From assembly GCA_015065175.1 (NCBI GenBank), contig SVQV01000011.1:1-35820 (forward strand): a DNA stretch of 35,820 nt, given 5' to 3'. Source of the stretch: Oscillospiraceae bacterium. GTDB lineage: Bacteria; Bacillota; Clostridia; Oscillospirales; CAG-272. This document shows, piece after piece, positions 575-12,242 of this stretch (within the stretch, counting starts at the first letter, position 1; each line of letters opens with the position of its first letter). The position numbers and the translations under genes are program-made. The notes beneath the pieces were generated by a model that was not told the origin of the DNA, made no database searches, and was given only the letters and a program-made list of their open reading frames with translations.

Positions 575-1873
575 ATGAAAAAAGATCTGAAAACAAGATT
601 GATAAATAGGAAAATAAAAAAGCCGGATCCGATCATTATGACTATATGTATGTGGATCATGGGTATTATAAACAGAATTTACGGTGTGGAATTCGAATAT
701 GACTATGACCCAAAGGCTATCAAGGATCAGCCGACGGTCTTGCTCTCCTCGCATGCGTCACGGCTTGAATTTATCTATACACTTTACGGCTTCGGGCGTA
801 AGGATACCAATATGGTATGCGGTTATCAGAATATACTCAAAAAAGGAATTTACAGTTTACTTATCAAGCTCGGTGTAATATCCAAATATTTATATCAGCC
901 TGATTTTATGTGTGTAAAAAACATGCTGAAGGTTCTCAGGCGTAACGGCGCGCTCGGTCTTTTTCCCGAAGGTATCCAGTCAACGAGCGGAAGCACACAC
1001 CCTATAAATCCCGCGACGGCTCAGTTCATCAAAAGAAGCCGTGCAAATATCGTGGTATGTACTTCAAAGGGGGCGTATCTGGCAACAAACAGGTATTCCT
1101 CGGATCGTAAAAAAGGGTATGTGGGTATAAGCTACAGTCTGCTTTTTACTCCCGAAATGTTAGAGGAGCTTACCGAAGAGCAGATATATGATGCTATTTT
1201 GCAAAAGATCAGCTATAACGATTTCGCTTTTAACAAGGTCGCGCGGCATAAGTACATCGGAAAAAAGCCGAACGCCTTCGGTATTGACAAAATACTCTAT
1301 AAGTGTCCCGACTGCAAAAAAGAATATACTCTGCAAGTCGAAAACGATACTGTTGTATGTAAAAGCTGCGGCTTTGGTGTAAGGATAAATGAATATTACG
1401 ATCTTGTTGATATAAAAGGGAAGGGCTGCCCTGCCGATATTGACGAATGGTATAAATGGCAGCGCAAATGCGTAGCAAAAGAGGTTGCGGATGACAGCTT
1501 TGAGCTGGTCTTGCAGGGGAGTCTGTGTGCGCTGAAGCTCGATAAATTAAGAAAGTCTCCAAATGACAAAAAGACACTGTCGGTAGGAACGGCTCGTCTT
1601 ACTAATAAAGGGCTTTCTTTTTCGGGTGTGCTTGACGGGGATGCCGTTAATTTCGATTTTTCTGCAAAATCGGTATATTCGCTTACCTTTTCGACACAAG
1701 GGTATCTGGAGTTCTACTGTAACAATGATTACTTCATGATAATTCCCGATGAGGAGGGTCACTGTCGCATTAAATGGACACTTGCGGCAGAGGAAATACA
1801 CAATCTTTATGATGAAAAGTGGAGGTCTGCCTGCGCAGATGTCTATGGCATAGGAGAAATGAGCTATGAATAA
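575..1873 (+). CDS. PlsC-like lysophospholipid acyltransferase with zinc-ribbon insert
   Basis: A 432-residue protein. Its N-terminal half resembles 1-acyl-glycerol-3-phosphate acyltransferases: a histidine motif near residues 60-65 (HASRLE, where the family has HX4D) and LFPEG near 129-133, the acyl-acceptor binding motif. Around residues 244-266 two CxxC pairs (KCPDCKK and VCKSCGFG) form a likely zinc ribbon. The last 150 residues are a beta-rich region I do not recognise. Usual family members are about 200-250 residues, so this one is roughly doubled. Known role of the family: acyl transfer in membrane lipid synthesis at the inner membrane face. The gene overlaps the next one by 8 bases and is probably co-transcribed with it. 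The start is chosen at the first ATG after the upstream stop; the ribosome site is weak. Confidence 0.75.
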   Translation: MKKDLKTRLINRKIKKPDPIIMTICMWIMGIINRIYGVEFEYDYDPKAIKDQPTVLLSSHASRLEFIYTLYGFGRKDTNMVCGYQNILKKGIYSLLIKLGVISKYLYQPDFMCVKNMLKVLRRNGALGLFPEGIQSTSGSTHPINPATAQFIKRSRANIVVCTSKGAYLATNRYSSDRKKGYVGISYSLLFTPEMLEELTEEQIYDAILQKISYNDFAFNKVARHKYIGKKPNAFGIDKILYKCPDCKKEYTLQVENDTVVCKSCGFGVRINEYYDLVDIKGKGCPADIDEWYKWQRKCVAKEVADDSFELVLQGSLCALKLDKLRKSPNDKKTLSVGTARLTNKGLSFSGVLDGDAVNFDFSAKSVYSLTFSTQGYLEFYCNNDYFMIIPDEEGHCRIKWTLAAEEIHNLYDEKWRSACADVYGIGEMSYE

Positions 1874-3347
1874 TTCAAAAGAATTAAATGTAAAAGTAAA
1901 ATTCGGACTCAGAAGCTTTATTGCGGTAGTGGCAATCCTGCTGGCGGTGTTGATAGCGGTCGGCGTACTTACTTTTGCAATACCTGCGGGAAGATATACT
2001 ATTTATACCACAGATGAAGCAAAGGCGCAGCAGCCTTTTTATCAATACACGGATGACGTATCCCTCAACAAGCAGATAGTTATAGATTCCTACCGTGAGC
2101 TTGCCGATGAGGAAAACACATCACGATTGCCCGTGATACGTTGGTTCACTTCGCCGTTTGAGGCTTTGCTTTTCGGTAGCAACAGCACAAATATGATCAT
2201 GATAATTGCGCTTTTGCTTGTGCTTGGCGGTACTTTCAAGGTGCTTGAGGAAAGCGGAGGACTCGTTTCGCTTGTCAGAGTGATAATGGTGAAGCTTCAC
2301 TCAAGGAGATTTGCCGCTATATGGATCATTACCGCTATTATTATGGCTTTATCTGCCGTGTTCGGTCTTCAGGAGCAGTTGCTTATTTTGTATCCCGTAT
2401 TTGCTATGCTTTGTACGGCGCTTAACTGGTCGCGATTTACCGCTATATCGCTTGTTCTTGTTGCGTCGGGAGTAGGCTTTACTACAGCTATTACAAATCC
2501 TCTGACTATAGGGACGGCATCAATTGCCGCAGGCGTAAGCGTCTCCGACGGTTTGTGGTACAGATGTATTATCTTTTGCGTGATGTACGTTGTGACCTCA
2601 CTGTTTTTGATGTATCTGGCAAAAAGCGATGAGAGAAAGGCGAGTGAAAGGTTTGACATTGAGGGCTTTTCTATGGTTTCCGACGAGGAACGTGCAGAGG
2701 ATATCCGCAAGGCGAGAATGATCGTCGCTCTGTTTTCTCTTGCTCTTTTATCTGTTATCGTTGCCACGGCAATAGATGCGCTCAGATCGCTTGCAATGGT
2801 GTTTATGGCAGTTGCATTTATCGTAGGCACGGTTATTGTAGGAAAAATACTTTTAGGTACATATAAGCGTCTCGGCAAGTGCTTCCTCGGGGGAGTAACA
2901 GACGTTCTTCCCTCTATTGTTATCATAATGATAGCCTTCGGTATTACACACGTGGCGCAACAGGGAAATATATTGCATACGATATTCTACTATTTCTATA
3001 ATTCCGTTACGAACATTTCACCTTATATTGCGGTAGTTGTTCTTTATGTATTTGTGCTTATCGTTGAATTCTTTATCCCGAGCGCATCCGCGAAGGCGGT
3101 TCTTATCATACCTATGCTTACCCTCGCGCCGATAGAGGGAATAAGTAAAACGGTCATCATTCTGACCTATCTGTTCGCTGACGGATATACAAATGTATTA
3201 TATCCTACCTGCGGCACACTGCTCGTCGGCTTGGGACTTGCCAATATAAGCTTTGCGGAATGGTTTAAGAAAACGATACTGTTCCAGTTGATTCTGTTTG
3301 TTTTGTCTCTTGCATTCCTGATGATCGCAGTTTTTATAGGTCTGTAG
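1866..3347 (+). CDS. YfcC-family integral membrane transporter
   Basis: A 493-residue polytopic membrane protein with about a dozen hydrophobic segments. After the first helix it has TFAIPAGRYTIY, which matches the YfcC/DcuC-like group (C4-dicarboxylate anaerobic carrier superfamily), whose members start with a similar VPAGxY segment. Further marks are SNSTNMIMIIALLLVLGG, EFFIPSASAKAVLIIPM and FADGYTNVLYPT, the re-entrant-loop-like segments typical of this superfamily. YfcC proteins are often annotated as arginine/ornithine antiporters or basic amino acid carriers, but the substrate cannot be read from the sequence. AGGAGAA lies about eight bases before the ATG, inside the upstream gene, so translation is coupled to the acyltransferase. 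Confidence 0.8.
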   Translation: MNNSKELNVKVKFGLRSFIAVVAILLAVLIAVGVLTFAIPAGRYTIYTTDEAKAQQPFYQYTDDVSLNKQIVIDSYRELADEENTSRLPVIRWFTSPFEALLFGSNSTNMIMIIALLLVLGGTFKVLEESGGLVSLVRVIMVKLHSRRFAAIWIITAIIMALSAVFGLQEQLLILYPVFAMLCTALNWSRFTAISLVLVASGVGFTTAITNPLTIGTASIAAGVSVSDGLWYRCIIFCVMYVVTSLFLMYLAKSDERKASERFDIEGFSMVSDEERAEDIRKARMIVALFSLALLSVIVATAIDALRSLAMVFMAVAFIVGTVIVGKILLGTYKRLGKCFLGGVTDVLPSIVIIMIAFGITHVAQQGNILHTIFYYFYNSVTNISPYIAVVVLYVFVLIVEFFIPSASAKAVLIIPMLTLAPIEGISKTVIILTYLFADGYTNVLYPTCGTLLVGLGLANISFAEWFKKTILFQLILFVLSLAFLMIAVFIGL

Positions 3348-3373
3348 CAGAGGACAATAAATTTATATGAACA

Positions 3374-3420
3374 AAGCGGATGCTCTTGCTTTTCAGTAAA
3401 GGGTATCTGCTTTAGTTATT
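3374..3420 (+). terminator. Weak rho-independent terminator after the YfcC gene
   Basis: AAGCGGATGC at 3374-3383 pairs with GTATCTGCTT at 3403-3412 (two G-U pairs), followed by a broken T-run TTTAGTTATTTT. The stem resembles that of the much stronger terminator at 20677-20730. The rest of 3348-3548 holds no gene that I can see. Confidence 0.5.
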
Positions 3421-3548
3421 TTAGCACTTATAAGACTTTTGATTTTAGCGAAGCAGGGTGCATCTTACCGCTGTAACTTGTATCAAAAACTGCCATATAC
3501 TAAAACGTTGCACTTTTTTACTAATCTGTTAATTATATGATTATAATA

Positions 3549-3577
3549 TTTACTTTTTTGAAAAAAAGTTGTATAGT
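3549..3577 (+). promoter_or_regulatory. Candidate sigma-A promoter of the giant surface-protein gene
   Basis: TTTACT at 3549-3554, a 17-base A/T-rich spacer, and TATAGT at 3572-3577. The element is nearly the same, spacer included, as the promoter in front of rhaB at 15751-15779. An AGGAGG-type ribosome site precedes the GTG start at 3660, leaving an 80-base untranslated leader. Confidence 0.5.
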
Positions 3578-3659
3578 ACTGTAATGCGAATTTTAATCTT
3601 TATAAAGTCGGTAAAAGTATTACAATTCCATTTTTTAAATAAAAAGGAGGTCGAAGAAC

Positions 3660-6600
3660 GTGAAGCTTGCATTGAATTTTATTAAGCAGAATGCTGATTC
3701 GTTATTTAAAAAATCAATTTCTGTTTTGCTTGTTATTTCTATGCTCTTTCAGATGTGTTATTTTATGGCAATGAGATCAAGCGCGGAAGAAATATATGAA
3801 GTATCTTCAATGTCGGCCCACAGTCAGGATTACATATCTGTAAACGGCGTAGTGATTGACCGTAATGTCACGCTTTCAGACAACGGAGACGGAACCTTTA
3901 CTCTCGACCTTCGTTTAAGCTCATCTTATTCAAAAGAAATTGAAAACGCTAAAACTTTGGTAGCAGAAAACGGAACCCACACGATAACCCATGACGGCTG
4001 GTATCTTTTGGAGCTTTGGGGCGGTAAAGGCGCAAGTGTAGACGGCGCAGGTGTAGGAGGTAACGAAGGTCACGTTTATGCAAAGGTATATCTTCGTGCA
4101 GGACAGACGCTTTTTTATTCGCTCGGCAGTAACGGACAAACAACTCAGAAAAGCAATACGGGCGGTGGCGCTAACGGATCGGGCGGCGGTCACGGCCTTG
4201 TAGGCAGTTCTACTGTTGGCGGTGGCGGAGGTTATTCCGCTGTATTCCTTTATGGCAACGGTGAATTTGAAAAATCATACGGCTCACTTGATGCTACTGA
4301 TATAACAGAAGCTGATAGAACTTCAAAATATATAATGATAGCCGGCGGCGGAGGAGGCGGCGGCGGAAAAGAAAATGGCTCCTCAAGAACCGCAAACGGC
4401 GGTGCGGGCGGAAACAATTCAAGCGCAAGCGGCACTGTCGGCGGTGAAAATTCTGTAGCCGGTGTGTACTTCGCAGGACAAAACGGTACTTCAAGTGGAA
4501 ACTCCACCTCTTACGTCGGAAAAGGAGGAACAAACGTTCCCGGTGTTACTTCTGACAGTATATTAGGTATCACAGACGCTGACTATATACCTCCTGATAA
4601 CTGGTTTGGAACGGTTGGTGGCACGGGTGGCGCAGGCGGTTCGGGCGAGTTGCTCGGTGGCGGTGGCGGCGCAGGATTTGCCGGTGGTTCGGGTGGACTT
4701 ATGAGGAGTGTCATTTTAACATCCAATATAGGAGGCGGCGGTGGCGGTTCATCATTCATTGCCAACACGGTAAATGACGAAAGCGTTATATACTCTCTTG
4801 ACGGTGAAGATAAAGAATATCTTGTTAGCACTAATCCTTCCAGCACAGGCGGCGCTTTGCGTGTTACATATCTTGATGGAGAAGACCTCTCTTTCCTTGA
4901 CAATATGACTGTCAAAGGATGCTTAAGCCCTTACGTTTTGCCGCTTGCAGGCGGATTTTATGCAGAAGATGGCAATTCCGACTCCAATATTGAAATATCG
5001 TATGAGATAGTGGAGCATAACCACGAGACACTCATAATTTCCGGATTTTCTCTGTTGAACGATGACGGCAGCATTGGCGGCTCTTTGCACATACAAATGA
5101 AATTTGGCTATAGCTCGGGATTTCTCGGAGGAAACAACGTACCCATACTTTACAATCACGGATATGAGCTGGACTCACCTCTCACTTTGTTTTTTGGCGA
5201 TGGAAAAGAGGCTGTTTTCGAGCTTGGGAAAACATGTGGATATGTGAACTTCCCATATAAGATTGAAGCTCACGGTCACTCAAATGAATCTAACTCACCG
5301 GGAACGAGTTTTCCCGTTAATGCGCTTTATTATGACCAGTTTGCAACTGTCAGAGCCTCTTTTGAGGATCTCATTGTTGATGACGCTGAGAGATATAAGT
5401 ATGGTCGTATATTGGAAATAGGAGAATATGAGGTCTACGATATGTCTGGCAAAAAGCTTGACGTAAACGGAACTGTATCACCGAATACCACTACACACTA
5501 TACTGTAGTGCTTCCTGTAAAAATGAAACCGACATCTGAGACGGGATTTGCAGCGGTAGGTACCAGAAATATTCCCGATGCAGACGGATGGATCCGTTTC
5601 ACAAAGGACATCTCTATAATTGTTCCAGGCTCGCGTGTTGAGCAGCTCGGAAAATTCCTTGTCACGTACACAAAAACTCTTGACTTTGACGGAGATAACT
5701 ATATATTCTCTCTTGAGGTGAAATCTTCGACAACCAAGGAGCATAACATTACGACAGAGTCCGAAGGCGTAAACCACGTTATGAACTTCGACTCTACGGC
5801 GGTTGTGGAATACGAGCATGTTATTGAAGTAACGGGCTGGTATCTCATACAGGCGTGGGGCGGTAACGGAGGTGCAGGCGGTAACTCACTTGTAGGAAGC
5901 GGCTCAGGTGGTGCAGGCGGCAAAGGCGGATACGTGCAAGGCTATGTACACCTTGACCGAGGCGACACAATAAACATATTTATGGGTGTCAACGGAACGG
6001 ACAATAGCAGTAAATGGACACAGGAGGGCCCCGGAGGAAAGCACTCGCGCGTTTCTGTCATAGATAAGGATACCGGAGCTTCCACCGTGCTTATGATAGC
6101 AGGCGGAGGCGGCGGAGGCGGCGCGTATAACTGGGGCAGCGGTTATAAGGGAAATGATGTTCCCTCAAGCTATACAACGACCACGCCAAACTCTGCAAAC
6201 GAATATTCCGCTTATGACGGCAAGACAGGAAACAACCGTAACGGTGGCGCAGCAGGCTCTAATTACATAAATACAGCATTAGTCAAAACCTCGATAGATC
6301 AAAATGACAGCTTTGACGATTATGCGGAAAATCTGTTCAACGGCGCACAAAACAGTGACTATTCTGCCGATACACACGGCGGCGGTACTTCACATATAAG
6401 ATGTCTGAAAATAACCGATGACGGAGCATCCGAGGTACTTCAGGAAATCGGAGCAACCCTGACCGATTATTATATAGACACAACGATATCAAAATATTTC
6501 AAAATCGAGAGTGTTACCTTCGGTAACGGTGAGTTAGACACTAATTTTCCCGTGCCGAATATATCTTATACCTACGAAAACGGAAGCGATACTATCCTTT

Positions 6601-9038
6601 CAATTAGCAAAATCTATCCGATCGTAACGACCGGTACGTCGGCAGACGGCAAGACACACTCCGCTTCGGCTGAGTTTAACGTCTACGTTAAGCTTTCGGT
6701 GTCTGACGGTTTTTTGGGAGGAAATGATGTGCCGCTGTTCTTGAACGGTGTAACACTTTCTCATACTCAATACGAGCTTATAGATGACGTAGCTACTCCA
6801 ATAGAGCCTCGTCCGTCTATACAGCTTGGCGCAAACGATGCTACAGACTATGCAAACGTAGCTATAGATATTAGTGTTTTGCCTTCTTATATTTTGGCGA
6901 ATAAGCTCTTTTATCAAGAAGGCGAGCCTGCAATTGCAAAGGCTGAGCTTTACAGCAGCGATAAGGCTCTTCCGATTGCGCCTGCTGAAAATGATGTCAA
7001 TGCTTGGAAATATAACTACGTTGACATCATAAATACGGTTACTGTAATTCCCGAAGAACTCTCTCCCGAGCACACGACAGAATACGATATATCTGTCGGA
7101 ATATTGCCGAAGACAGCGGCTACAAAGGCAGTAGTTATAGATAGCCAAGAGGGAAAACAGCTTTCGGATACGGCTATAATCATCGTCGGACACGAGGTCG
7201 TATTTGATCTGACCGAGCTTTCCCATAACGTAGAAGATCTTCACGGCAAATACGTTGCGGAGATTGGCAATGATTTCGAATTCACGCTCGTTCCTACGGA
7301 AAATCATTTCCTTCCCGACAATATAACAGTGAAGGTCGGAGATGACGTTATTCCCGAAGGGGAAGACACGTATATTTATACACGCGGCTCGGGTGAGATC
7401 GTCATAAAAGAAGCGGCTATAACCGATGATATAACCGTAATTGCAATAGGAAAAGCAAAAAAACACAACCTGAATTATTACTATGCGGAAACTCCCGACG
7501 CTACCGATTATGAAAAGCGGACAGAAGAATACGAGGAGGGCGAGTCTCTCGAAAACGCATTCCATAACAAACATGATCCAAACTTTGAAGGATATGAATT
7601 TTCGTGGGATTGGGGAGACGGAAACACGGAAGCGCCTACGGTAATGCCCGAAAATGACCTGTTTGCTATAGGTAAATTTACTCCCAAGAAGTATACCGTC
7701 ACAGTATACTATAATTACGAAAACGGCACTGTTGCAAAGGAAACTCAGTTTTACACTTACCTCTACAAAGAGGATTACAGCATTAATCTTCCGTACATTG
7801 AAGGTCACCTTGCTTATGTAAATGAAAGCGAGACGGCATCTACCTCATTTGCAGGACAAATGGGCGCAGAGAATATTACTGTAAACGTAACGTATGTTGC
7901 AAGTAAAAGTAAAGCGCCTCTTACTATTATTTACATTCATGCAAAAACAGGTGAGGAAATGAAGTCATATATCCTGTCGGATAAATATTCGACAGGTCAG
8001 ACGTATACAGAGCTTATTGATATGCCCGAGGGGTACCTTCAGTCTAAAGACGGGATGACATCAGATTCCGAATGGACAGAGATTACCGGAACAATGCCGG
8101 CAGGCGGGGCATCGGTAACTGTTTACTGTATACCCAAGACCTATACTGTTATATTCGAATCTACCGACGACAACGGAAACCCCTATGAATATGCACGTCG
8201 TCAGGTGGCTTTCGGTGAAATATACGGAGAGGACGAAAACGGTGTCTATTCGGTGTTCGGAGAGCCCGCGCGTGCTCATCATACCTTCCTTGGATGGTAC
8301 ATAAAGGATACGGAAACAATGATAGAAGAAGATGACGTCGTGGGCGACAACGGAGATCAGACACTTGTCGCAAAATGGGAAGCACATACTTATACTATAA
8401 CTATAAGGTATTTGTTCGAGGACGGAAGCGAGGTTTTTGAAGAAGAATTAAACCAGCTCGTCCACGGCACTGAATATACGTTTATAGCGAAGGATTATTC
8501 GGGATATACTCCTACTCCACCTTCGGTGAGCGGCAGGGTGGAAGGACAGGATATGGTATTTGTGTTTACCTACATATCGGATTATCCGACAGAACCGATA
8601 ATAGCGGCAACAGTCGCATGGGGAGATTTGTCATTCAGCTTCGAAGCGGGAATGTGGGATCCCGAAACTCACACCTATGAGGATGATACATTCACTCCAA
8701 ATACCGAGGGCGAAAATACGATAACTATAACCAATGATGATTCTCATGTTTACGTAAAGAATGGCGATGAGTATGAGAAAAAGAGTATTTTGCTTAACGC
8801 TGAAATAATCTTTAGTGCGTTGTATGAATTCAGAGACCTCTCTGGACGTTTTACAAGCTCCTCTTCTCCCGAAAGCATTGAGATAGAGGGAAAAGATGAG
8901 TTTGACGCCGTTATTGCCACAACAGAATCCAAAACGGCATACTTCTGGCTTGTAGGCAATTTTGAGCCCACCGCCATAGGAAACTATGCGATAGGCTCCT
9001 GTACAGTCACCTTGCGAGGAGGCGATATAGAAGAATGA
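3660..9038 (+). CDS. Giant secreted Gly-rich surface protein (1792 aa)
   Basis: Starts at GTG behind AAAAGGAGG. Residues 1-43 are a signal peptide (basic start, ISVLLVISMLFQMCYFMA core, cleavage near RSSA-EE). Two glycine-rich domains of the ALK/LTK-like Gly_rich type lie at about 112-405 and 723-916; each opens with GWYL(L/I)xxWGG and contains IMIAGGGGGGGG or LMIAGGGGGGGG. Each is followed by a beta-rich module containing GFLGGN(N/D)VP (near 487 and 1016), so the front two thirds look duplicated. Residues about 1340-1640 contain MucBP- and InlB-B-like repeats (YTVTVYYNYENG, YTVIFEST, HHTFLGWY, YTITIRYLFEDG), typical of adhesins. The last 145 residues match the small secreted protein at 10160. 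There is no LPxTG motif or C-terminal membrane helix, so how it is held at the surface is unclear. Its stop overlaps the next ATG (ATGA). Probable adhesin or matrix protein; ligand unknown. Confidence 0.85.
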   Translation: MKLALNFIKQNADSLFKKSISVLLVISMLFQMCYFMAMRSSAEEIYEVSSMSAHSQDYISVNGVVIDRNVTLSDNGDGTFTLDLRLSSSYSKEIENAKTLVAENGTHTITHDGWYLLELWGGKGASVDGAGVGGNEGHVYAKVYLRAGQTLFYSLGSNGQTTQKSNTGGGANGSGGGHGLVGSSTVGGGGGYSAVFLYGNGEFEKSYGSLDATDITEADRTSKYIMIAGGGGGGGGKENGSSRTANGGAGGNNSSASGTVGGENSVAGVYFAGQNGTSSGNSTSYVGKGGTNVPGVTSDSILGITDADYIPPDNWFGTVGGTGGAGGSGELLGGGGGAGFAGGSGGLMRSVILTSNIGGGGGGSSFIANTVNDESVIYSLDGEDKEYLVSTNPSSTGGALRVTYLDGEDLSFLDNMTVKGCLSPYVLPLAGGFYAEDGNSDSNIEISYEIVEHNHETLIISGFSLLNDDGSIGGSLHIQMKFGYSSGFLGGNNVPILYNHGYELDSPLTLFFGDGKEAVFELGKTCGYVNFPYKIEAHGHSNESNSPGTSFPVNALYYDQFATVRASFEDLIVDDAERYKYGRILEIGEYEVYDMSGKKLDVNGTVSPNTTTHYTVVLPVKMKPTSETGFAAVGTRNIPDADGWIRFTKDISIIVPGSRVEQLGKFLVTYTKTLDFDGDNYIFSLEVKSSTTKEHNITTESEGVNHVMNFDSTAVVEYEHVIEVTGWYLIQAWGGNGGAGGNSLVGSGSGGAGGKGGYVQGYVHLDRGDTINIFMGVNGTDNSSKWTQEGPGGKHSRVSVIDKDTGASTVLMIAGGGGGGGAYNWGSGYKGNDVPSSYTTTTPNSANEYSAYDGKTGNNRNGGAAGSNYINTALVKTSIDQNDSFDDYAENLFNGAQNSDYSADTHGGGTSHIRCLKITDDGASEVLQEIGATLTDYYIDTTISKYFKIESVTFGNGELDTNFPVPNISYTYENGSDTILSISKIYPIVTTGTSADGKTHSASAEFNVYVKLSVSDGFLGGNDVPLFLNGVTLSHTQYELIDDVATPIEPRPSIQLGANDATDYANVAIDISVLPSYILANKLFYQEGEPAIAKAELYSSDKALPIAPAENDVNAWKYNYVDIINTVTVIPEELSPEHTTEYDISVGILPKTAATKAVVIDSQEGKQLSDTAIIIVGHEVVFDLTELSHNVEDLHGKYVAEIGNDFEFTLVPTENHFLPDNITVKVGDDVIPEGEDTYIYTRGSGEIVIKEAAITDDITVIAIGKAKKHNLNYYYAETPDATDYEKRTEEYEEGESLENAFHNKHDPNFEGYEFSWDWGDGNTEAPTVMPENDLFAIGKFTPKKYTVTVYYNYENGTVAKETQFYTYLYKEDYSINLPYIEGHLAYVNESETASTSFAGQMGAENITVNVTYVASKSKAPLTIIYIHAKTGEEMKSYILSDKYSTGQTYTELIDMPEGYLQSKDGMTSDSEWTEITGTMPAGGASVTVYCIPKTYTVIFESTDDNGNPYEYARRQVAFGEIYGEDENGVYSVFGEPARAHHTFLGWYIKDTETMIEEDDVVGDNGDQTLVAKWEAHTYTITIRYLFEDGSEVFEEELNQLVHGTEYTFIAKDYSGYTPTPPSVSGRVEGQDMVFVFTYISDYPTEPIIAATVAWGDLSFSFEAGMWDPETHTYEDDTFTPNTEGENTITITNDDSHVYVKNGDEYEKKSILLNAEIIFSALYEFRDLSGRFTSSSSPESIEIEGKDEFDAVIATTESKTAYFWLVGNFEPTAIGNYAIGSCTVTLRGGDIEE

Positions 9039-10075
9039 CGAATTACAGTTACAGATTTAACCATGATTATGATAAGCAGATAAACGTGGGCGAAAAGTGC
9101 CTCCGCTGCTATTCAAAAGAAAAACTAAGCGAGCTTTATCCCGAGGACAATTACAGCATTGTCGGCGAGATGAAATGCGCCGCTAAAAAGGCAGACGAAC
9201 AAAAAAAGAAAAAGAGAAAGAGAAAGAGAAAGAGGATACCGATAGGGCAGACAGATATAGAAAACACGATTTTTGAAGTCTTTTCTATGGGAACCTTTGG
9301 AAGCTTTTTAAATAAGGATGTCGGCTACGTTTGTGTAGGAGAGGACAAGTTTCTCATAGTAAAGCAGAGCCGAGTTCCGTTTATTGCCGCATTTTTGCCC
9401 ATGACTATCGCTATTGCGGCTTGTATCGTTGTTATTTTGCTTCTTCTTTTGAGACAAACCGATTTTCAGGATGAGGGGACTTATCATCCACTGCCGAGCG
9501 TTGACCCTAACATCGAGGTTATAGAACCCGATGTTACAACAACGGTTGGAGGAGGCGGACCCAGTATCCCTGTCGATCCTTCAGTTACAACTACAGTTGG
9601 CGGAGGCACAGATATTCCAATCGATCCTTCGATCACAACAGCAGTCGGAGGCGGATCGGACAATCCTATAGATCCCGCAGTGACGACTGCCGCGAGCAGC
9701 GGAACGAATACACCTACCCAAAATACTCCCGAAAACGGCGGAGGTTCCGTATCTATCATATACACTATGACAGCAAGCTATAATGAGGGAGACGACGAGA
9801 TTACAATCTATTTCAAAAACCCGAAAAAGTCCAATCACGATATGGTGCTTGAGCTTTACGCTATAGCGACCGACGGCTCTCGCGTGCTTATGGCAAAGAG
9901 CGGAAGAATACCTATAGGATACGGCATTGAAAAAATGAAACTGCTTGACTCCGCACCCGCCCTGACAAAGAATACCTATAAGGGCTTATATAGAATAACC
10001 TTCTATGATCCCAAAACGGGAGAGCTTGCGACGGTTGACACGGAAATCCCCGACATAAATATAACCGTCAAATAA
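9035..10075 (+). CDS. Single-pass membrane protein with repeat linker and beta ectodomain
   Basis: A 346-residue protein, translationally coupled to the giant gene (ATGA overlap). Residues 1-112 are cytoplasmic, with KCLRC at 21-25 and a long basic run at 57-67. A single helix follows at about 114-139. Outside the membrane comes a linker of four 16-17 residue repeats of the type (V/I)TTxVGGGxxxPIDPS (about residues 165-235), then a domain of about 105 residues ending in YRITFYDPKTGE and a final beta strand. That ectodomain resembles the one in the protein at 10823. I do not know a named family. From its position it could anchor or assemble the giant protein or the small secreted protein; that is inference. 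Confidence 0.75.
   Translation: MTNYSYRFNHDYDKQINVGEKCLRCYSKEKLSELYPEDNYSIVGEMKCAAKKADEQKKKKRKRKRKRIPIGQTDIENTIFEVFSMGTFGSFLNKDVGYVCVGEDKFLIVKQSRVPFIAAFLPMTIAIAACIVVILLLLLRQTDFQDEGTYHPLPSVDPNIEVIEPDVTTTVGGGGPSIPVDPSVTTTVGGGTDIPIDPSITTAVGGGSDNPIDPAVTTAASSGTNTPTQNTPENGGGSVSIIYTMTASYNEGDDEITIYFKNPKKSNHDMVLELYAIATDGSRVLMAKSGRIPIGYGIEKMKLLDSAPALTKNTYKGLYRITFYDPKTGELATVDTEIPDINITVK
9201..9235 (+). repeat. A/G-only hexamer-like microsatellite inside the 9035 gene
   Basis: A run containing only A and G, built on repeats of AGAGAA, encodes the Lys/Arg stretch before the membrane helix. Its unit of six bases means that slippage by whole units would lengthen or shorten the basic run without shifting the frame. 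Confidence 0.6.
9533..9716 (+). repeat. Degenerate tandem repeats coding the TTxVGGG linker
   Basis: Four diverged units of about 48-51 bases encode the extracellular linker repeats (VTTTVGGG, ITTAVGGG and so on, each followed by PxDP). They are conserved better in protein than in DNA, so this is an old coding repeat and not a recent expansion. Confidence 0.6.
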
Positions 10076-10091
10076 TAGTATTTATTACTCC

Positions 10092-10121
10092 TTGACAAAG
10101 GCAGGGAGCTGTAAATAAAAT
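10092..10121 (+). promoter_or_regulatory. Candidate internal promoter for the small secreted protein
   Basis: TTGACA at 10092-10097 and TAAAAT at 10116-10121 with an 18-base spacer, in the 84-base gap before the small secreted gene. AAAGGAAA at about 10144 is the ribosome site for the ATG at 10160. This would let the small protein be made in excess over the giant. Confidence 0.45.
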
Positions 10122-10159
10122 AAAACAAAAATCAATTATTATGAAAGGAAAACACACAA

Positions 10160-10705
10160 ATGAAGAAAATTTTTGCAATCACACTTGTACTCGTTATGAT
10201 GCTTGCTATGTCTGTTACTGTATTTGCGGAGGGCGAAATCACAAGCATAACTGAAAACAACACGAAAGAAAATAACATTGTTGTCACTGTTACTAGTGAG
10301 TATGTTGACCCTGATAAAACGTACTATGTAGTCGTAGACTGGACAGATACTACTATTGAAATTAAAAACACAGTATCAGGAGCTACATGGAACCCCGAAG
10401 ATCACATATATGAAGATGGAAACACAACATCTTCGGTAGAAGGTCAAGCTGCTGTAACGGTAACTAACCATTCTAACGCTGCGGTTAAGGCAACTGTTTC
10501 AGCTCTCAATTTTAATGTGACTGGTTTGACAGTCGATTGCGAAGGTCCTGCTGTTCTTGATGACGCTTCTGAGGTAGCTTATGGTGCTCCCGGTTCTGCT
10601 GATTCCGAAGAAATTGCCATCACTGTTGCAAAGGATACCAATGAAACTGTAATTGCTGAAGGAACATATAATTTTACTGTTACAGTAACTATTACAGCAC
10701 CGTAA
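10160..10705 (+). CDS. Small secreted surface protein with WxPExHxYED domain
   Basis: A 181-residue protein with a textbook signal peptide (KKIFAITLVLVMMLAMSVTVFA, cut before EGEI). The mature 157 residues are beta-rich, acidic and free of lysine clusters, with one Cys. The core VVDWTD, then ATWNPEDHIYEDG, then VEGQAAVTVTNHSNAAVKATV matches the C-terminal domain of the giant protein (VAWGD, MWDPETHTYEDD, TEGENTITITND). From memory, similar short secreted proteins with a W-x-P-E-x-H-x-Y core are common in gut clostridia, without a named function. Its own putative promoter and the strong hairpin after the stop suggest high expression, as for a subunit of a surface layer or fibre; that is inference. 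Confidence 0.8.
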   Translation: MKKIFAITLVLVMMLAMSVTVFAEGEITSITENNTKENNIVVTVTSEYVDPDKTYYVVVDWTDTTIEIKNTVSGATWNPEDHIYEDGNTTSSVEGQAAVTVTNHSNAAVKATVSALNFNVTGLTVDCEGPAVLDDASEVAYGAPGSADSEEIAITVAKDTNETVIAEGTYNFTVTVTITAP

Positions 10706-10736
10706 ATCTATTTACCGCAAGTAATTTTCATGCTCT

Positions 10737-10796
10737 AAGCGGAGCTTTCGCTCCGCTTGGAGAAACCGTATTGGCATAGCCGACCTTTGAATACGG
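10737..10796 (+). promoter_or_regulatory. Two adjacent RNA hairpins between two surface-protein genes
   Basis: AAGCGGAGC at 10737-10745 pairs perfectly with GCTCCGCTT at 10750-10758 around a TTTC loop. A second pair, CCGTATT at 10766-10772 with AATACGG at 10790-10796, follows. No T-run follows either stem, so they look less like a simple terminator than like an mRNA 3' end stabiliser or a partial attenuator. Confidence 0.6.
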
Positions 10797-10822
10797 AAAA
10801 CAAAAGAATTACAAAAGATAAT

Positions 10823-11326
10823 ATGGATAAAAAAGAAAAAACAATTATCACGGTCACGGCTGCCCTTCTTGTCGTTGCTCTTGTTGCGACAGCGGTAGTA
10901 TTTTTCGTTCAAAAGAAAAAGAACGATTTCACACCGCCTCCGTTTGACAAAGGCGCGATAAGTGGGAAGCCTGCCGTAGATAATGAAGCTTTCCAATATC
11001 GAAAGGTAACAGTTTCGGAGGATCTTATCTTTTCTTTATGTATGTGTCCCTTGTATGAAGCAGGAAATGCTGATGTCTTTTTAACAAATGACGAAAGCAG
11101 TAATGCTTACATCAGAATAGTGCTTTTTGACGCAGAAGACAATCCCATTGGAGAAAGCGGCCTCTTAAAGCCGGGAGAATATATAGAGAGCGTTTCTCTT
11201 TCTATATCTCCCGAAAAGGATACGAGCATAAAGGCAAAGATATTGTCATACGACAAAAAGACCTATTACAGCAAGGGAACTTCAGACGGAAATTTGAGTC
11301 TTATTATGAGTGATCAGTTTGAATGA
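10823..11326 (+). CDS. Single-pass membrane protein, ectodomain like the 9035 product
   Basis: I choose the ATG at 10823 (MDKKEKTIITV). The frame is open back to a TTG at 10757, but that start would lie in the hairpin region. This gives 167 residues: a short basic N-terminus, one membrane helix at about 7-28 (VTAALLVVALVATAVVFFV), then an outside domain of about 135 residues with VFLTNDESSNAYIRIVLFDA, SGLLKPGEYIESVSL and an AKILSYDKKTYY strand. The order N(D/P)xxSN, SGxxxPGxxIE, xSYDxxT parallels the ectodomain of the 9035 gene product, so the two look paralogous. There is no clear ribosome site, so the upstream hairpins may matter. Function unknown; likely part of the same surface system. 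Confidence 0.7.
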   Translation: MDKKEKTIITVTAALLVVALVATAVVFFVQKKKNDFTPPPFDKGAISGKPAVDNEAFQYRKVTVSEDLIFSLCMCPLYEAGNADVFLTNDESSNAYIRIVLFDAEDNPIGESGLLKPGEYIESVSLSISPEKDTSIKAKILSYDKKTYYSKGTSDGNLSLIMSDQFE

Positions 11327-11398
11327 GGCTCAATAAAATTACAAGAAAAATATAAAAGCTGTTATTGAAATAAAAACAGCGAAAAGAGAAAACACCTT

Positions 11399-11442
11399 AA
11401 AAGGAGTACGAGCATTTCACTTGTACTCCTTTTGTTTTATCA
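11399..11442 (+). terminator. Rho-independent terminator ending the surface-protein cluster
   Basis: AAAAGGAGTAC at 11399-11409 pairs perfectly with GTACTCCTTTT at 11423-11433, followed by GTTTTATC. The flanking A-run would also make it work on the other strand. Confidence 0.8.
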
Positions 11443-11819: not shown

Positions 11820-12242
11820 ATGAGTAAATTTGTACTTATTCCCGATTCTTTCAAAGGAACGCTGTCCTCGCTTGAAATTTGTAGAATTGCGAAGGACAAA
11901 ATAGAAAGCTTTTATCCCGAAGCGGAAATTCTCTCTATTCCCGTCGCTGACAGAGGAGAGGGAAGCGTTGACTGCTTTATATCCGCATTGGGCGGAGAAA
12001 AAATATCCGTTGACTGCAAAGGTCCGTATATGGAGGATATTACATCATTTTACGGCTTTCTGCCGTACGGCGCACAGCTTCTTGTAGCTCTGTCGGCGGT
12101 AAGCGCTATGAATCTTACGCTCGGCGCTTTTGAAATTATCTCTCATATGTTCTATCCTATGATGCTTCTTTTAAGCTCTCTTGTGTTTATGTTTATCATT
12201 CCCGAAAGAAGAAAAACGATATGTCGGCAGAAGCAAATGTAA
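11820..12242 (+). pseudogene. Glycerate kinase N-terminus fused to a membrane-protein end (chimeric remnant)
   Basis: Residues 1-82 match the start of glycerate kinases of the GlxK/GarK type: KFVLIPDSFKGTLSS, then PVADRGEGSVDCFISALGG, then a conserved FYGFLP. At about nt 12065 the resemblance stops abruptly, and the remaining 58 residues are two hydrophobic segments (GAQLLVALSAVSAMNLTLGA and YPMMLLLSSLVFMFIIP) ending RRKTICRQKQM, like the last helices of a multi-pass transporter. Full glycerate kinases are about 370-380 residues, so most of the enzyme is missing and it cannot be active. The simplest explanation is a deletion that joined two genes in frame. The source of the second half is not recognised. 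The end overlaps the deacetylase ORF by 22 bases. Confidence 0.75.

Follow-up and report, generated by a model that had tools for sequence, protein, structure and literature searches.

The window analysed here, a 35,820-nucleotide stretch of an Oscillospiraceae genome, was found to carry a cluster of four adjacent genes that is real and conserved. Comparison with relatives in the Clostridia showed that a set of genes is kept together in order, namely a large secreted protein with an exchangeable passenger and a domain here designated W, a membrane protein (A), one to four W proteins, a second membrane protein (B) and often a protein with a sortase-type tail. As far as searched the cluster is undescribed, as no published description was found in open-licence papers. 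It is likely that the four genes constitute one surface-assembly system, and the proposal of the initial annotation that the giant, the small subunit and the membrane anchors belong together is well supported; the fibre or surface layer proposed there as their product is more conjectural.

In the window the four ORFs are all present, co-directional and free of stops, and the giant has the length first assigned to it (Table 1). The giant gene starts with GTG behind AAAGGAGG, and its stop codon is overlapped by the start codon of A (ATGA). The ORF of gene B ends as annotated, but the TTG at position 10757 that had been taken as its start lies within the hairpin found between the small gene and B, and the ATG at 10823 is most likely the start. 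The strong terminator reported behind the cluster was recovered, its stem having the most pairs of the terminators found in the region. Of the two reported promoters, the site before the giant exists but is on its own not above chance, 25 sites with 9/12 matches being found in the region scan versus 17.5 ± 4.0 expected. The internal site before the small gene is closer to consensus in the window, but a conserved promoter in the gap between A and the small gene was sought across relatives and was not evident, a site of at least 10/12 occurring in 3/27 gaps (window included) where 0.65 were expected. The transporter gene adjoining the cluster (1866–3347) has a match at E ≤ 1e-60 in 6 of 60 genomes of the genus, its own included. 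An ORF further along the window (11820–12242) has, by eye, an N-terminus like that of what we take to be the glycerate kinase family and an unrelated membrane-protein-like tail, and it looks like a deletion fusion.

Table 1 Features of the four-gene cluster, with positions counted from the first nucleotide of the window.
Feature	Position	Strand	Remarks
Promoter-like site before the giant	3549–3577	+	TTTACT-17-TATAGT, 9/12; weak
Giant secreted protein, 1792 aa	3660–9038	+	Signal peptide by eye; Pfam and NCBIfam matches
C-terminal W domain of the giant	8568–9017	+	Profile of small proteins, E 3.9e-13
Anchor A, 346 aa	9035–10075	+	N-terminal domain, one transmembrane segment (TM), repeat linker, ectodomain
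Internal promoter-like site	10092–10121	+	TTGACA-18-TAAAAT, 11/12
Small secreted W-domain protein, 181 aa	10160–10705	+	
RNA hairpin between the small gene and B	10733–10762	+	13 bp, -23.4 kcal/mol
Anchor B, 167 aa (most likely start)	10823–11326	+	N-terminal TM, ectodomain with SGLLKPGEY motif
Intrinsic terminator-like stem	11398–11434	+	15 pairs, T run

A profile of B, run over the genome collection, disclosed 54 loci in Clostridia, which by title belong to Oscillospiraceae, Lachnospiraceae and other Clostridia and are mostly metagenome-assembled genomes (MAGs). Many came from ruminants and deer and some from other animals; one locus (L079) is that of Pseudoflavonifractor capillosus An386a, a cultured isolate. 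Gene order was counted in the 40 loci in which 3 kb or more of sequence precedes B; here A was found in 33, a small W gene in 33 and a large W gene in 27. Both A and W occurred in 30 loci, and in all 30 W was located between A and B, as a single gene in 9 loci, two genes in 13, three in 7 and four in 1, with a large W gene before A in 18 of the 30. As in the window, W and A overlapped or lay no more than 5 nt apart in 8 of 19 pairs. A, W or both were missing in 10/40 loci (L040, L041, L053, L054, L056, L071, L077, L078, L082 and L085), of which L077, L078 and L085 have A and B with W not detected. Failure of the genes to occur together elsewhere had been set beforehand as the refuting result; they were found together, and the cluster survives. 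Among 473 flanking ORFs, grouped by homology, one group, the fifth gene, recurs in 16 loci and the next families in at most 6/54. Integrase-like ORFs were seen by eye next to the clusters of L028 (1340–2883) and L030 (13016–14248).

The other proteins were also used as queries. Protein A hit 13 of 295 genomes of the order, own included; at the loci so recovered the series large W, A, small W and B is seen in families other than that of the window, and the gene after it often encodes an xxTGD-hydrophobic tail. In the search of the order for strong A matches, 13 of 29 genomes were kept and 16 dropped. A occurs alone, in other gene neighbourhoods, in L022 (9233–9766), L024 (3030–3554) and L029 (9019–9549). 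The W profile passed E ≤ 0.001 in 100 of the 295 genomes; 16 with E < 1e-20 were kept and 84 dropped, most of the weak matches listed covering signal-peptide columns only. All 13 A-positive genomes were also W-positive. Since several of the clusters concerned had gone into the profiles, this overlap is in part circular, and the independent support for co-occurrence is confined to three unlinked genomes (G112, G166 and G187), which have a solo A and, on a different contig, W genes (L099, L101 and L103). Single proteins were also searched for in 59 genomes (the window's own, 35 from its genus and 23 of the order). The small protein was recovered from the own genome and, weakly, from G005 (E 4e-4), and B from the own genome only; such queries have little sensitivity at about 30% identity. 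Three loci of the window's family (L100, L102 and L106) form a second, divergent cluster type, in which a protein of about 500 aa ends like A, the giant matches W weakly and there are several small proteins resembling W. Distant B proteins are present in L100 and L102, and the weak B match of G096 adjoins such a cluster.

A search for a mobile-element origin revealed no relatives of B in viral contigs or plasmids, and the phage collection gave two W matches, both in unannotated faecal contigs. One of them, a human faecal contig filed as 'Bacteriophage sp.' (L118, MT837052.1), carries at 1987–6125 the series W, A, W, W and B, with a weak W match after B; given this gene content in an unannotated contig it is probably bacterial DNA, and it suggests that the human gut also harbours the cluster.

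The composite consensus of the W domain is IDVxAxY...VYSVDIxWGxMxFTY...WNPxTHxY...W...ITVTNHSN...GTITVTI, and the WxPE motif noted earlier for the small protein is part of its WNPxTH element. That the giant and the small protein have a domain in common, as first annotated, was confirmed with a profile made from small proteins only, which matches the giant (Table 1). Proteins of at least 270 aa gave 41 W hits; in 32 the domain lies deep in the protein, 29 of these being no more than 30 residues from the C-terminus, and in 9 it comes first with an extra C-terminal part. No Pfam match better than E 0.001 was obtained among 49 W, 51 B and 38 A members, and the window's own A, small protein and B could not be assigned convincingly to any family of Pfam or NCBIfam. 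A, W and B are three families without a Pfam name.

Several candidate assignments were considered and rejected. DUF7096 for W (2/49 members, best E 0.0012), DUF5719 for B (5/51, best E 0.0016), and FixH (3/38, best E 0.002) and Tetraspanin (1/38, E 0.0013) for A were taken for chance. In NCBIfam, W gave weak matches to ExtJ (22/49, best 1.1e-5), which in the small protein of the window cover aa 1–33 only at 18.4 bits versus a cut-off of 52.5, and to acid_shock_Asr (10/49, weak); B gave one stray match to TraE, and A, for which the window protein alone was scanned, gave no hit. The PDB profile matches of W were mostly antibody constructs over columns 1–60, the site of the signal peptide, while those of A were three designed proteins and the search with B gave no match.

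The large proteins differ widely in what precedes W. The giant of the window has an ALK_LTK_GRD-type glycine-rich domain at aa 111–371 (57.6 bits versus a Pfam cut-off of 24.5), a weaker Gly_rich_2-like stretch at aa 730–909 and weak List_Bact/MucBP-like repeats, the latter two below cut-off. A scan of 13 proteins assigned Metallophos, Pur_ac_phosph_N and Big_2 to the large protein of L079, ALK_LTK_GRD and MucBP to that of L081, BspA-type LRR to L073, YDG and MBG to L058, DUF4886 to L048 and a weak cohesin match to the large W protein of L074 (4975–7506), and found no domain in some of the others. The protein scanned from L070 (1127–6760) is itself no W protein and is a subtilase with a weak dockerin match, encoded next to a W gene. 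Passengers before W, whether Gly-rich/MucBP, phosphoesterase, BspA-type LRR, YDG/MBG or weakly cohesin-like, are unrelated to one another, and giants with a W domain reach at least 2902 aa.

The ectodomain that the two membrane proteins were said to have in common was substantiated by comparison of the A and B profiles, which are homologous (hhalign probability 98.8, E 6e-17), and in both proteins the TM precedes the ectodomain. Protein A has a further domain of about 110 residues before its TM, absent from the initial annotation, which the topology would place in the cytoplasm. This N-terminal domain is common to the window, L020, L081 and L084, a subtype in which the giants visible next to A (L020 and L081) are Gly-rich as in the window.

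The gap between W and B is unusually structured. Among relatives, 26 of 36 such gaps had z-scores below -3, versus 19 of 68 co-directional control gaps (p 4e-5), while the gap between A and W was no more structured than the controls (8/25 with z < -3, p 0.093); the gap holding the window hairpin had a z-score of -5.5. Seven hairpins could be aligned, with conserved feet CTYTKAT...ATRAGAG and 92% of cells paired, and 24 cells were changed on both sides versus 8.8 ± 2.4 in shuffles, a signal that was lost when the partners were slid. The covariance model gave 29 matches at E ≤ 1 in 799 kb (loci and window, both strands counted), all of them just before B, so that 16 of 54 loci have the covarying hairpin in front of B; the model itself was made from seven of these. 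A regular expression for the hairpin found 9 sites in 55 sources, eight before B and one in L035, 2.5 kb past B. The window hairpin occupies the same gap as the conserved hairpin of relatives and is unmatched by the covariance model; no Rfam family was found at the hairpin. The hairpin may act in processing, attenuation or translation of B.

A second conserved element is a strand motif at the N-terminus of the small proteins. Scored with a position matrix, leaving out one locus at a time and with a 5% shuffle threshold, the motif was present in 56/62 small W proteins versus 5/32 large ones, the latter not clearly different from shuffles (p 0.08); the small protein of the window is among the 6/62 without it. 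With an AxA site as a crude proxy for signal-peptide cleavage, the median distance from this site to the start of the motif is 10 residues. Along the alignment of A the motif scores best at the strand that comes first behind the linker (GGAVSLTY), with a mean of 0.75 and the next column at -6.23; this was equalled by 30/2000 column permutations (p about 0.015, uncorrected for several motifs and families), versus 1128/2000 for B, the control, and 54/2000 for the internal match of large W. The likeness of the A strand to the small-W motif, resting on two positions (V and Y), is suggestive only. Scanning A and B for the best match per sequence was uninformative, since A scored above shuffled sequences, yet frequently with the last strand (EIPVTITV) as the best hit.

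The initial annotation had described the cluster as having no sortase and no LPxTG. This is correct for the window, where no fifth gene and, in the four proteins, no LPxTG or other sorting signal was found, and for its own genome (92% complete, 5.7% contaminated), which gave no match to PF04203 (sortase), but it does not extend to the family. In 19 of 47 loci a downstream gene encodes a protein of 221–507 aa with an xxTG[D/E]-hydrophobic tail, for instance SPQTGD or IPQTGD, and a true LPxTG in L050 and L072. A sortase match was found in 18/19 genomes with the fifth gene versus 16/26 without it (Fisher p 0.014) and was absent in 11/45, many of these relatives' genomes being incomplete MAGs; of the 54 loci, 45 entered this test, seven being left out for having less than 1.5 kb after B and two for an assembly prefix in common with another locus. 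With this skew the fifth gene looks like a sortase-linked option. The core of W, A and B does not seem to need it, within the limits that genes missing from MAGs set on this inference.

As a mechanism, assembly by beta-strand complementation outside the membrane is the best single proposal, to which we give a nearly even chance. The N-terminal strand of a small W protein, lying shortly behind the signal peptide, would complete the W fold of its neighbour, and the terminal W domain of the giant, usually without the motif, would be the distal acceptor. Protein A would supply a strand at the base, which B would hold or orient, and the relative amounts of subunit and anchor would be set by the hairpin that precedes B. 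The fifth protein would tie the assembly to the wall in bacteria with a sortase, the window's version doing without. In such a scheme the W domain would be a docking module. The motif in small W proteins and its frequent lack in large ones are what donor-strand assembly would predict, and in the giants the preceding domain may supply a strand that is not conserved. The 9 of 41 long proteins in which W comes first are not explained by a giant at the tip, and the end product may be either a long fibre or a short complex for display. The complete model, a sortase-independent, membrane-nucleated donor-strand fibre of gut Clostridia with a W shaft, a base strand from A, the giant at the tip and the ratio set by the hairpin, is put forward tentatively and would be somewhat doubtful if taken as a whole.

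A possible, if not quite probable, alternative is a display platform like that of csc/WxL systems, without polymerisation, in which one large W protein and one to four further W proteins stand side by side on the envelope, held by A and B. The gene plan matches the csc/WxL clusters part for part (PMC1534035, PMC10599100), and there too the large protein carries the shorter domain, so that the asymmetry between small and large W need not mean a fibre; against it, a repeating subunit would better account for the strand motif and for the run of one to four W genes between A and B. A sortase-assembled pilus, or a covalently wall-anchored surface protein cluster, would account for the sorting-tail gene in 19/47 loci and its association with sortase genes, but it is improbable given that the window's four proteins carry no sorting signal and that a sortase match is missing from its genome and from 11/45 relatives.

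Similarly improbable is an S-layer with small W as the lattice protein. W is indeed small, secreted and sometimes present in several copies, but the Pfam scans gave no S-layer family and the distribution is patchy, with a strong A match in 13/295 genomes of the order; we know of no S-layer with two dedicated TM anchors. The asymmetry of the strand motif between small and large W would likewise favour strand-complemented assembly over an S-layer. The patchy distribution might also suggest that there is no joint machine and that independent surface genes became neighbours by linkage or transfer, and the 35 other species of the genus gave no B match and one weak small-protein match (G005), though with insensitive queries. 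Since the flanks vary while A, W and B are kept, and A and W co-occur even when unlinked (G112, G166 and G187), this explanation also seems unlikely.

As it recurs in dozens of relatives while the giants differ greatly, the gene set looks like a kit for displaying proteins on the cell surface. If this is so, large clostridial surface proteins without a sorting signal would have a common docking module and partners recognisable from sequence, which would predict the place of attachment for dozens of giants that resemble adhesins or enzymes, and the cluster would be a clostridial counterpart of the WxL clusters with parts unrelated by sequence. Strand donation, if it occurs, would be directly testable by comparing small with large W domains. 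The cluster also brings three families without a Pfam name and a hairpin element without an Rfam name.

The csc/WxL clusters of Lactobacillales and Bacillales comprise (PMC1534035, PMC10599100) a DUF916-DUF3324 'WxLIP' protein, a small WxL, a large WxL and a short LPxTG protein (CscA-D), the WxL2 domain of the large protein (130–140 residues) being shorter than the WxL1 of the small one (160–190). Both systems have a large protein, whose N-terminal part is exchangeable and whose C-terminal domain recurs in the small proteins, a small secreted protein consisting of that domain alone, a membrane-anchored partner and, in many clusters, a sortase-type protein. They differ in that A and B are two homologous genes with the TM before the ectodomain, whereas that of WxLIP comes after, in the length of the fifth protein (90–140 residues for CscD) and in that the loci described here are clostridial; PMC1534035 (2006) found no csc genes in clostridia. 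The WxL domain (PF13731), which has two Trp-x-Leu motifs and binds peptidoglycan, gave no hit in the four window proteins and was absent when the 49 W members were put to Pfam, where 24 families were listed at E ≤ 0.1; hhalign gave a probability of 0.04 for W against a profile of five WxL domains from G572, and the Pfam scans gave no match of A or B to DUF916 or DUF3324. WxL was above cut-off in 2/299 genomes of a phylum sample and was not found in the window's own genome.

The F-ENA endospore fibres (DUF4183), which occur in some Clostridia, likewise combine a small subunit with an anchor carrying the subunit's domain, according to the preprint PMC11952670, but they are a spore-surface system with a collagen-like anchor, whereas the cluster here encodes signal peptides and TM anchors; no DUF4183 match was found in the Pfam scan of 49 W members. 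Sortase-dependent pili are resembled by many relatives in the sortase-type tail of the fifth gene, but not by the window, whose four proteins lack a sorting signal and whose genome gave no sortase match. The Pfam scans of the four window proteins and 49 small W proteins found neither SLH nor CWB2 nor any other S-layer family. The same scans gave no match to the camelysin family, which we take to be PF12389, and no TasA-named chain was among the PDB profile matches of W. In the TasA/camelysin-TapA system of Bacillus, as presented in PMC9674648 and PMC13082335, a small secreted protein has an N-terminal strand near the signal peptide that is the proposed donor, and a second protein has a similar strand; residues 28–38 of TasA form the donor strand, which the N-terminus of TapA resembles (PMC9674648). 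A dedicated signal peptidase, SipW, beside the gene is a further mark of TasA fibres; among the flanks of the loci described here, grouped by homology, the fifth gene is the one family that recurs in more than 6 of 54 loci. The giant passenger and the two TM anchors are without a TasA counterpart, but TasA-type fibres are the nearest mechanism to the one proposed here.
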